A stretch of DNA of 64,000 nucleotides from positions 124,001-188,000 of the forward strand of contig NW_019154049.1 of the NCBI RefSeq assembly GCF_001653235.2, read 5' to 3'. The position numbers were made by a program, and so were the translations under genes. Below are positions 7,092-11,432 of this stretch, piece after piece (position 1 is the first letter of the stretch; the number at the start of each line of letters is the position of its first letter). The stretch is from Pochonia chlamydosporia 170. Its lineage: Eukaryota; Ascomycota; Sordariomycetes; Hypocreales; Clavicipitaceae. The notes under the pieces are model-generated. The model had not been told where the DNA came from. It did not search any database and saw only the letters and a program-made list of their open reading frames with translations.

Positions 7092-7963
7092 TTAATTAAT
7101 TGTTTTACTACATATTTGTTTGTTATTGTTGTTAGAATTGTCATCTAAATTGTAGGGCAACACAACCAGACATCTATTACCTGTCTCATCCTCAAGTCCG
7201 GAAACAGCTTCAAAGCCAAAATCTTCCAACTCGTCCTCGTCCAGCTTATTACCAGCTGCTTCGACAGCGTCTTCAAAGTCATCTTGCTGGCCGAGCATTG
7301 CGCCCTTAACATACTCCTTGGTGAAACCACCGCCCTGCCTGTGAACCTGTAGCTTCTCCACCTCAAATGCAAAGACCATTGGCCCAGCGATTGTTGACGA
7401 ATGCGTTTGGGACATGGTAGGTCGATAGTTTACTTTTGGCCCGATTGTGAGCTGAGCTGCAGGAATTTCGACTCCGATTTGGACTTTTGTTTCATTCGCC
7501 TTCTCCACTGTCGTTGTAATGGTCACATTCTGCACGGTTTTGATCGCTGTCACCAAAAACACTTTCGCACACGTCCCACCCATTTTTAGATAAGACTTGA
7601 CCGCGCCATCATCCACAGCTTTCTGGATATAACTGCGAGATGGATTAAATCTATATGTGTTCATGACTTCGGCAGAATACGCTACCTCCGTCGTTGATGA
7701 CGAAGAGTAAGACAGTTCTCCGCCAAGAGTAATAAAATGAATGAAAGAGGAGAACAACCCAATGGCCCATTCTTTCGATGACTTGGCTGTTCCCGAGCAT
7801 GCTCTTTCTGTCCTACTTAATATTGGCGAGTCGATCGCGGAAGGCAACGTATTGGACGAGAGTGGCTTGTGTGGGTTGCTGAGATTGGGAATAACGCTCC
7901 CTAAACAATTTCTTCTGTCCCCATGCCCCACGAGGGTGTGAGGAAGTAGGTTTTGAGGGGCAT
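7092..7963 (-). pseudogene. Gasdermin-like pore-forming protein, frameshifted near N-terminus
   Basis: The minus-strand frame down to 7092 carries the pattern of fungal gasdermin-like proteins (RCD-1/HET-Q1 relatives). It has a hydrophobic start followed by LGGELSYS, the block YRFNPSRSYIQKA, the VFLVTAIKT strand, a GPKVNYR turn and VFAFEVEKL. A ~45-residue acidic tail resembles the cleavable inhibitory C-terminus. Family members form membrane pores and trigger cell death after proteolytic cleavage of that tail. The open frame has no ATG upstream of the domain. The only suitable ATG (7961-7963) opens a family-like start (KTYFLTPSW) that is one frame out, with the switch somewhere in 7896-7920. 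No intron of plausible length can bridge this. It is therefore either a pseudogene or a sequencing slip in the local G runs. The divergent neighbour is its presumed activating protease. Confidence 0.72.
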
Positions 7964-8391
7964 AGCGGCTCGTGCGAGGAGGCGGGAGGCTAGAGAAGCT
8001 AGTCTTGCGGCGAGCGGGATCTAGGACCGGGCCGGGCCGACGCAGGGATAATGGTAATTGAGCGGCGTTATGGTGAAGTGTTCGTAACTTCACCAACGAA
8101 ATCTGGGAAAGGACATTGGGTTGCGACAAAATTCGAAGCGACCGAGAGTAATGGTGTGATCTTTCGTGAACGTGACAGCTAAAGAGTGTCCGCAGCTGGT
8201 GGAGCGCCTCGCACGTGAGTTATTCATTCCACGCCCAACGACAGAACTCTGGCGACTTTGAGCCGCAATCGGAAGAAAACAGTCCCAGACCCCGCATCCC
8301 CGAGGATGTCATCACCCACAGTGATGAGCCACCAATGTCTTCATGAAAGCTTGAAGGTCACGCTGAGTGAAACGATCCGCCAACCATCGCC

Positions 8392-8733
8392 ATGCCGGGG
8401 TCCTTCGGCAACCCATATCGTGCAGTAAGCGGCCGACAACATCGGAGCCGCCCGCTTGAGCGGCGGCTAAAGTTATTTATGACTATTCTTCCCTGCTTCA
8501 CGCTCGCAATTTCCAGAGCATATTCAGCGTCAAAACGGGCCACCAGGCGATTCTGGATTGAGTTGTTGAGTCCATGCACCGAAATGGAAGTGGGAGACTC
8601 GCGCTTTGATCGGGTCGACTACAGATATGATTGCATTTTGAAGCTAATCTTGGCTAGTCTTGAGGATTTAGTTTGTTACAGAAAGTCTGAAACCAGTGAA
8701 GTAAGAGCTAATCAATTAATGACGAAATGCTAG
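8392..8733 (+). other. Possible 5' exon of the S8 protease gene
   Basis: An open frame beginning with ATG at 8392 (another at 8479) precedes the DUF7580-like exon. Its later part (GDSRFDRVDYRYDCILKL then LASLEDLV) loosely resembles the helical N-terminal part of DUF7580 proteases. An intron would have to join it to the exon that is open from 8773. I could not fix the splice sites, so this is only a candidate for the missing start of the protease gene. Confidence 0.25.
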
Positions 8734-8772
8734 CCGTTAATTTTTCGCCATTAGGATTCAACCGACTACCCT

Positions 8773-11432
8773 CGCCTAGAAACTATCCGCCAAGAGATAC
8801 TTCGCCTAGAGGCACAGCGCCAGGAAAGGACCATCATAATTGCAGATGAATGCGACGACGAGTGTGATGATGAGCTCTGCATTGAACTCCGCAAGCCGGA
8901 CACAGAAGCAGCATGCAAGGAGCTTATTAATTCACTGAAGGCATTGTCACGGATAGTGAAGGACGATTCAGAGCAACCCAGCCCCGAAGAGTTTCGCACA
9001 ACAAGGAAAATCAGGCCGTCAATGGCTCTCTTCTTGCACACTCTCTTCTCCACCATCTCAGAGGCATGGCGCTGTGCTTGCATGCCTAATCATCAGGCGG
9101 CTCTGCTCCTCTTCGGCAACCGTGCCCTTGGAACTGTTGATTATCCCGTCACCTTTACGGTGCTCTTGAGTGATGGAGAGCCGCGCTCACCAACCAAACG
9201 ATGGAAAGAGGCGGCAATAACCGTAGCCGATCCTTCAGAGAGGGTTAATGTCAACCCGCGTCCAAGAGTTCGATTTAATTCGCAATCTACAACCAGTAAT
9301 GTTGGGAGCTCGACTCAGATTAACAACCTTTGTCCCCTAATTAAGACTAGCAAAGATCGCCTCAACCTGAACGTCAGCGGTGCCTCATTGTCAATCCGAG
9401 CCGAAACGCAACGCAGACTTATAAATTATGAAGACTGTGAGCCAGTCAGCTTCGTTGCCGGAATCTTGGAAAACGATGTGCTCTTCAACCATGACGCAAA
9501 GTTATGCCTTGCTCTGATACTGTCCTGTGCGTTCGTCGATTTCTGTGACGGACCTTGGTTTGCAGATGGGTGGACGAAGACGAACCTTTATTTTATGCAA
9601 CGCGGTGATCGATTGTTTCTTCAACCATTTCTGGTCACAAACATGGCTGGAAACCGAAACAGACAAAACCCTCATTTGACGCCATCGATGTCGACTAGGT
9701 CAAAGAAGCTGTTACAACATGGAATTCTGCTGATGGAGATATTCCAGCAAGATTCCTTTCAACATTTCATCGGAGACGACAGAAAAGTCCACAGTTTGGA
9801 GGATTTGGCCTACGATTGGTTTCGCTCCATTGACTGGGATGTTTGCGAACGACTCGTCCAGATTGTAGAAACGTGTATCCGGGGCGAACTTATCGATATA
9901 TGTTCACAACCCAATGAGATCTCGGACCAGGAGTTTATGCGATTGTTTTGGGAAAAGATACTGGAACCCTTACATGTAGATTTTGCAGTATTCCATGGGA
10001 GGGAAGATCCGGATCAGGTTATTTCCAAACTCTCGCTTCCTGGGGTTGAAATGAAGAGCCCGGTTGCGGCTACAGCCAAAACAACCGAGTTGAAGGTGTG
10101 TATTCGGCTGAAAATCAGGATGAATTCTACTGACAGCTACGTCCCTGGGTAGTCCGCCATACGTAAAGGTCCAATCTACAAGTTGCGAACATTACCACCG
10201 CTCTTGAATCCTCGTGCGAGTCACATGTTGCGAACTCCGTCTCCGTCTCCCCTCAATCACTCAAAATTGAGGTTCTTTTTTGATGTGGTGGACTGCCCAG
10301 ATCCGCAGCAGTAAGTACATTTTCACTTCAATCTTGCTTCCTTTGCTCCGTTTCTGAAGCCAATACAAGAGCGAGAAATGCATTACAGTGGTTCAAGAGG
10401 GTCGATGAGGAGGTAATCCGGGAAAGGACGAAACGGCCGAAGGAAAAAGTGGCCGGAGAAAGGGGACGTAAATTTCTTCCTTCTCCGGGTCGGCAAGTCA
10501 GAATTGCTGTTTTGGACACTGGCATCGATTTGCAAAACACTTGGATTGATGGGGAATCCCGCCGGATCAGGTGTTGGCCAGCCGGTGAAGATCACAAAGA
10601 TAATGACGGCCATGGAACTCATGTTGCATATTTGCTTCTTCGCCTGGCTCCCAATGCACTTCTCCGTGTCTGTAAAGTGAGCAATACAACTCTGCTAAAA
10701 GATGCTAAAGTCGATCAAATCACAAAGGTATTAAACAACACTGGCTATTCAGTCACAAAAATGCTCACTATTCACTAGGCAATAACGCACTTTTCCACGG
10801 GCGAGGCACGCGTGGACATCATCAACCTGTCCTTCGGCTTCGCCGAATACACAAAAGATCTAACTCCAGTGCTTGAAGCGATTCGCACCGCTCGCAAGAA
10901 CGGCGTCGTCGTCTTCGCCGCGGCTGGCAACGATGGTGCCAACCAAGATGTCTTTTGGCCGGCAGCCCTGTATAGCGGCGGTGACGTTATCTGCATCAGC
11001 TCCTCCAACAGTTTTGGCGTTCAGTCTGGTTTCAACCCCGAAATTGAGACTGGCCGGCGAATTTGCACATTGGGTGAAGGTGTCCCGTCCTGCCAGCCGG
11101 ATCTGTCTAACCCGCTGCAAGTTGTCCATCGGAGCGGTACTTCGTTTGCAACACCTATTGCGGCGGCGATTGCGGCGGTTGTGTTGGCTGTAATGGATAA
11201 CGCGGACTACAATGGTTTTGAAGGAGATAAAGAGACACTCTTACCGAGGCTTCGCACTGCGAGGGGGATGGAAAGTGTACTCTGCAAGACATGCGTGGCG
11301 AGGTCTGGATCTAACAGCTCAGGGTTTTCATACATCGCGCCGTGGTTCTTTGTTGATGTCGGCGACAAGATTCTGGTTCCAAAGGTTCTCGACATTCTTG
11401 GAAGCATTCCAGAGTCGCCATTTTCTTACTGA
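8773..11432 (+). CDS. DUF7580-like / subtilisin-like S8 protease (gasdermin partner)
   Basis: Exons 8773-10095, 10153-10310, 10370-10727 and 10779-11432 keep one reading frame with GT-AG introns of 57, 59 and 51 nt. The true start lies upstream and is unresolved. The N-terminal ~440 residues look like the helical DUF7580 domain (blocks NDVLFNHDAKLCLALILS and KKLLQHGILLMEIF). A FFDVVD and ALQWFKRVDEEV linker follows. The C-terminal subtilisin domain has all three catalytic motifs intact: Asp in VLDTGID, His in GHGTH, Ser in GTSFATP. In fungi such proteases (HET-Q2 type) cleave gasdermin-like proteins to start regulated cell death. The neighbouring gasdermin-like gene on the opposite strand strongly supports that role. 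It has no signal peptide in the visible part, so it is probably cytosolic. Confidence 0.8.

Follow-up and report, generated by a model that had tools for sequence, protein, structure and literature searches.

A fungal gasdermin gene beside a DUF7580-subtilisin protease gene in Pochonia chlamydosporia 170: a probable cell-death module with a broken gasdermin frame

The window analysed here is a stretch of 64,000 nucleotides from the fungus Pochonia chlamydosporia 170 (contig NW_019154049.1, positions 124,001 to 188,000). At positions 7092-11432 it holds a gasdermin gene on the minus strand and, head-to-head with it, a plus-strand gene for a protease that joins a DUF7580 domain to a subtilisin (S8) domain. 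The pair probably comprises a fungal gasdermin (fGSDM) and a HET-Q2-like (Q2L) protease dedicated to it; cleavage of the tail would lead to pores and then to cell death. The gasdermin relation and the fold of a relative, the S8 domain, adjacency in two other named fungi, and gasdermin-S8 neighbours at two further loci of this genome all point to such a module. The module is real, conserved and of a kind already described in print; its additions to the known class are a kinase-like sensor domain and a gasdermin frame that is broken in strain 170. An initial annotation had given the order of the genes and their outer coordinates correctly and had read the pair as a pore-former with an activating protease. 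The evidence points there, but the frame break had been overlooked.

By its sequence, the minus-strand gene belongs to the fungal gasdermin family. The open frame at 7092-8219 aligns with residues 22-274 of relative P0006 (60% identity, 325.8 bits, E 3.3e-96). When the C-terminal 190 residues were used as query, 19 of 89 candidate proteins were found at E<=1e-3, from sources that include Cadophora, Cudoniella, Clohesyomyces and Pochonia. A profile of these 19 relatives matched positions 20-271 of itself to the main frame with 414 bits, a score that is inflated because one row, P0003, is a deposited piece of the window gene. Sixteen columns are invariant across the 20 rows of the alignment, the window and its deposited piece included. 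Profile comparison related the family to RCD-1 and HET-Q1 (1.5e-6 and 6.6e-6). The initial annotation had held that a missing gasdermin fold would speak against the module; the fold was found, as predicted on a relative and not on the broken window gene, and the closest structural match of this relative is RCD-1. The acidic C-terminal tail described earlier was also confirmed, being rich in Asp and Glu in the window gene and kept in relatives. Its removal is proposed by analogy with HET-Q1, as described in excerpts of PMC10989679.

The Pfam models were less uniform. DUF7580 and S8 exceed their cut-offs in the protease, but the window gasdermin stays below that of the Pfam Gasdermin family, PF04598 (14.2 bits against 25). 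PF04598 was detected at E<=1 in 9 of the 20 alignment members (best E 0.006), and it is not taken as defining fGSDMs because relatives with a gasdermin fold fail it too. PF20597, which had been named as the gasdermin family, is in fact pAdhesive_15 and matched nowhere, 14 controls included. PF26164 is annotated on one relative (P0012).

The plus-strand gene encodes both proposed domains on one spliced protein, as the initial annotation had stated. Open reading frames and splice signals give five deposited exons and 875 residues with no internal stop, and a database search found the deposited protein P0020 to be identical to this product (100% over 100%). DUF7580 was found at residues 133-448 (60.9 bits, cut-off 27) and Peptidase_S8 at residues 579-799 (75.6 bits, cut-off 21.8), the latter aligning with subtilisin BPN' at 3.9e-13. 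The Asp, His and Ser motifs are intact, with Asp 588, His 620, Asn 709 and Ser 780 as the putative catalytic residues. The gene probably starts upstream of the deposited start and spans 8392-11432, encoding 939 residues. The start was put at 8392 because P0022 and P0023 are longer N-terminally and the window is open to an ATG there. Comparison of residues 1-140 of this longer product gave E 4e-25 for P0022 (40% over 104 aa) and E 1e-16 for P0023 (35% over 88 aa), but no good match for P0021 (E 0.022). A HeLo domain was sought in the N-terminal part, which is helical in a low-confidence model, but was not found: the probability was 0.1%, and the kinase-like part, used as a control, gave 0.3%.

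Adjacency of the two genes recurs in other fungi. Lack of such neighbours had been named as a second point that would speak against the module, yet consecutive locus tags join a gasdermin to a DUF7580-S8 protease in Cudoniella acicularis and Cadophora sp. M221, which gives adjacency, not orientation. A protease gene thus lies within 10 kb of the gasdermin gene in the window, in Cudoniella and in Cadophora. Two of the three named fungi beyond Pochonia among the gasdermin matches are paired, Clohesyomyces being unpaired, and two further pairs were inferred from a shared source and an identical length of the longest contig.

Further analysis covered the strain 170 genome (44,215,803 bases, 49 contigs). 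With four gasdermin queries, two more gasdermins came to light: one at C2:4078255, matched by P0006 at E 8.6e-7, and one at C1:774469, matched at E 0.04 by P0006 and at 1.2e-10 by the C2 gene. The genome contains 45 S8 matches, or 36 places after merging those within 2 kb, and each of the two gasdermins has one of them beside it, at 2186 and 989 bp. Since the surroundings of S8 matches, taken out to 2.5 kb, cover only 0.47% of the genome, finding both of two gasdermins beside one is far beyond chance. Two weaker gasdermin matches, C1:2184203 (E 0.7) and C11:338702 (E 0.16), were discarded as noise, and no listed S8 match is close to either. A second DUF7580-S8 gene, one of six other DUF7580 genes, was seen as collinear exon pieces at C5:330190, and 329 bp from it lies a weak gasdermin-like gene (L015 6391-7230, minus strand). 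This gene matched the first profile at E 0.013 and at 1.1e-4 after the profile was rebuilt with the two gasdermins of the same genome (best reversed control 2.8), and searches of Pfam and PDB gave it no match. The C5 pair is not independent evidence of clustering because the gasdermin was sought beside the DUF7580-S8 gene. As a separate observation, the window holds a second subtilase piece at 45174-45716 on the minus strand (PF00082, 71.4 bits), in a frame without DUF7580.

The proposed mechanism follows HET-Q1 and HET-Q2 of Podospora anserina, which likewise comprise a gasdermin with a short C-terminal tail and an S8 protease. According to excerpts of PMC10989679, HET-Q1 is a protein of 278 aa that sheds 40 residues when it is cut at F238, and HET-Q2 has 388 aa. 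By analogy, the window protease would act as a sensor whose N-terminal part and kinase-like DUF7580 restrain the C-terminal subtilisin. A trigger on the sensor part would let the subtilisin remove the acidic gasdermin tail, and the freed N-terminal domain would form pores in the plasma membrane of the fungus itself and kill the cell, perhaps in defence or non-self recognition. The window protease differs from HET-Q2 in its size of 875-939 aa and its DUF7580 domain, and an allorecognition role for the window pair is putative. In the Q2L/fGSDM two-gene clusters of fungi, a gasdermin likewise adjoins a multidomain S8 sensor protease. The consulted portion of a review mentions Q2L fusions to predicted kinase-like domains and lists TPR, ANK, WD40, NLR and an unspecified kinase-like domain among the architectures, where the window has DUF7580 (PMC12881547). 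RCD-1 of Neurospora crassa, the best structural match of the gasdermin relative, differs in its control, which depends on an encounter between two allelic forms and not on cleavage (PMC12881547, same portion).

Several observations weigh against this reading. The structure model of the protease is poor (pLDDT 49, pTM 0.37), and residues 706-784, which include the catalytic Ser, have a pLDDT under 50. Of the 19 gasdermin rows, counting that of the window, only 5 could be matched to a DUF7580 partner. Eight of the 14 unpaired rows are on contigs under 10 kb, but six, Clohesyomyces included, are on contigs of 11-117 kb, so that 5 of 11 rows on contigs >=10 kb are paired. The protease searches scored the best ~8000 candidates by shared words; an unpaired row may therefore be a miss and not an absence. 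Finally, the window's own gasdermin is frame-broken, so strain 170 may have the protease half only.

The initial annotation was right about the family of the minus-strand product but not in treating it as one open gene. Two pieces in different frames join at about 7904. Profile positions 3-20 match the minus frame 7904-8020. In a set of 1646 six-frame pieces from the window this match scored 11.7 bits (E 0.010), and in a larger set with the rebuilt profile 9.3 bits (E 0.24); on its own it is weak, yet it lies exactly where the block would be expected. An intron was rejected as unlikely, since the pieces abut with no profile positions missing between them. The earliest ATG of the main frame, 7664-7662, is residue 186 of the open frame; a start there would therefore give a 190-residue product without about 100 of the 273 profile positions. 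The deposited model VFPPC_14850 (P0003) has only 135 aa. Of the 19 relatives, 13 have 270-313 residues and carry a conserved block of some 20 residues at the N-terminus; the remaining six, with the window's own P0003 among them, are short or begin internally.

It may well be, at slightly under an even chance, that the break is real and that strain 170 lost its gasdermin and kept the protease. The abutting frames leave no room for an intron, and the other three gasdermin-like genes of the genome (C2, C1 and C5) are single open frames. The assembly was built from Illumina contigs first and then error-corrected PacBio reads (PMC5773674, in part), which we take to make a single indel error less likely. 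Under a real break, the orphan protease would be harmless at home and could act on gasdermin-bearing strains after cell fusion, as HET-Q2 does in Podospora. Such an orphan sensor fits the 'pseudogenization' model, whose published example is het-Q1/het-Q2 (PMC10197012, excerpts). However, the rest of the frame is undecayed. Among the 34 columns that are at least 95% conserved across the other rows, the window gasdermin departs at one (0-5 in the other 19 rows), and with an 85% threshold it departs at 4 of 84 (2-12 in the others), giving no sign of relaxed selection in these counts. Moreover, only one strain is concerned, and an orphan of the HET-Q2 type would also have to be constitutively active.

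Alternatively, the break was introduced in base calling or assembly, and strain 170 in fact has a complete, functional pair, which we hold to be nearly an even bet. The gasdermin shows no further lesion and the protease gene is intact, but the contigs are Illumina-based. In addition, the close relatives P0001 and P0004 are likewise predicted without the N-terminal block, which may reflect a frame break, an intron or a gene-caller effect. That the genes are chance neighbours, with a subtilisin for nutrition or nematode attack, is very improbable; subtilisins are many in this genome, but the adjacency recurs in two other named fungi, gasdermin and S8 are neighbours at two other places of the genome, and the protease carries a kinase-like domain.

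The C-terminal core of DUF7580 was found to have a kinase-like fold. It resembles RAF- and RIPK-type kinase domains. A 14-row DUF7580 profile gave a probability of 72% against 15 kinases. Besides the window's, the genome has six DUF7580 genes, and four of them encode HeLo followed by DUF7580. Pkinase-type models match the DUF7580 residues in three of these four at 4e-5 to 1.5e-4, without reaching the curated cut-offs. The eight protease-type rows gave no direct profile match to kinases (0.3%; control against gasdermin 0.07%). A three-row protease-type profile reached 23.9% against the kinase-like part of the HeLo proteins (control against HeLo 0.1%). The DUF7580 profile had zero matches among PDB sequences up to E 10, and the triplets HRD and DFG, presumably the catalytic kinase motifs, were not seen in the DUF7580 region of the window protease, where the aligned places differ.

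The order HeLo-DUF7580 is that of MLKL, and the RAF/RIPK-type core likens these genes to MLKL/RIPK and to fungal HeLo-kinase proteins, from which the window protein differs in its fusion to subtilisin and an N-terminal part without HeLo signal. Tentatively, and on balance improbably, DUF7580 would be an MLKL/RIPK-like pseudokinase switch joined either to HeLo (necroptosis-like) or to a gasdermin-firing subtilisin (pyroptosis-like), with the broken strain 170 gasdermin leaving an orphan protease as a first step to a het-Q-type incompatibility locus. If so, both architectures in one genome would mean that one sensing principle feeds two death programmes. A protein kinase match was also observed 2.3-2.6 kb from three of the seven DUF7580 genes, the window's included in the seven, at C4:4865212, C8:310166 and C5:3110899 (L014, L018, L019). 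The C8 and C5 genes carry a HeLo domain, and a PNP_UDP_1 frame lies between at C4. By analogy with RIPK3 and MLKL, these loci are possibly kinase and HeLo-pseudokinase pairs.

The review portion consulted names sensor activation in the death pathways of fungi as a major open question (PMC12881547), and the window pair is a concrete case of a kinase-like input domain that is also found behind HeLo in the same genome. Among the open-licence papers searched, none contained the word DUF7580 and none treated gasdermin together with Pochonia. Strain 170, with its seemingly broken pore gene, can be compared with strain 123. P. chlamydosporia is employed against plant-parasitic nematodes, as partly consulted literature states, so strain incompatibility could carry practical weight.

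Table 1. Features of the gasdermin-protease locus in window coordinates
Feature	Position	Strand	Basis
Gasdermin main body, profile positions 20-271, acidic tail at C-terminus	7092..7904	-	P0006, 60% identity, E 3.3e-96
Gasdermin C-terminal Asp/Glu-rich region, start approximate; proposed removable inhibitory tail	7092..7334	-	sequence and conservation
Gasdermin N-terminal block, profile positions 3-20, ATG 7963-7961, stop directly after	7904..7963	-	other frame than body
Common upstream region of both genes, 428 bp from one proposed start codon to the other; putative promoter	7964..8391	.	arithmetic
Probable missing N-terminal part of protease gene, 64 codons, outside deposited model	8392..8583	+	relative matches
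Protease exon 1 as deposited	8584..8700	+	splice model; product identical to P0020
Protease exon 2, with DUF7580 at 9034-9981	8755..10095	+	splice model, domain match
Protease exon 3, linker	10153..10310	+	splice model
Protease exon 4, S8 Asp 588 (10515-10517) and His 620 (10611-10613)	10370..10727	+	splice model, alignment
Protease exon 5, S8 Asn 709 (10929-10931) and Ser 780 (11142-11144)	10779..11432	+	splice model, alignment

Other features surround the pair. Window positions 1-7000 form an AT-rich region whose dinucleotide ratios resemble those of repeat-induced mutation, most strongly at 1-4000; the region ends next to the gasdermin gene, on its 3' side. Downstream of the protease, a short ABC-transporter piece was found at 12205-12411 on the plus strand (PF00005, 40.3 bits), perhaps a remnant, and a further frame to 12620 resembles an ABC-transporter piece. 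The stretch 14752-25691 holds three cytochrome P450 pieces together with one piece of the Transferase family (PF02458) and is perhaps a secondary-metabolite cluster.
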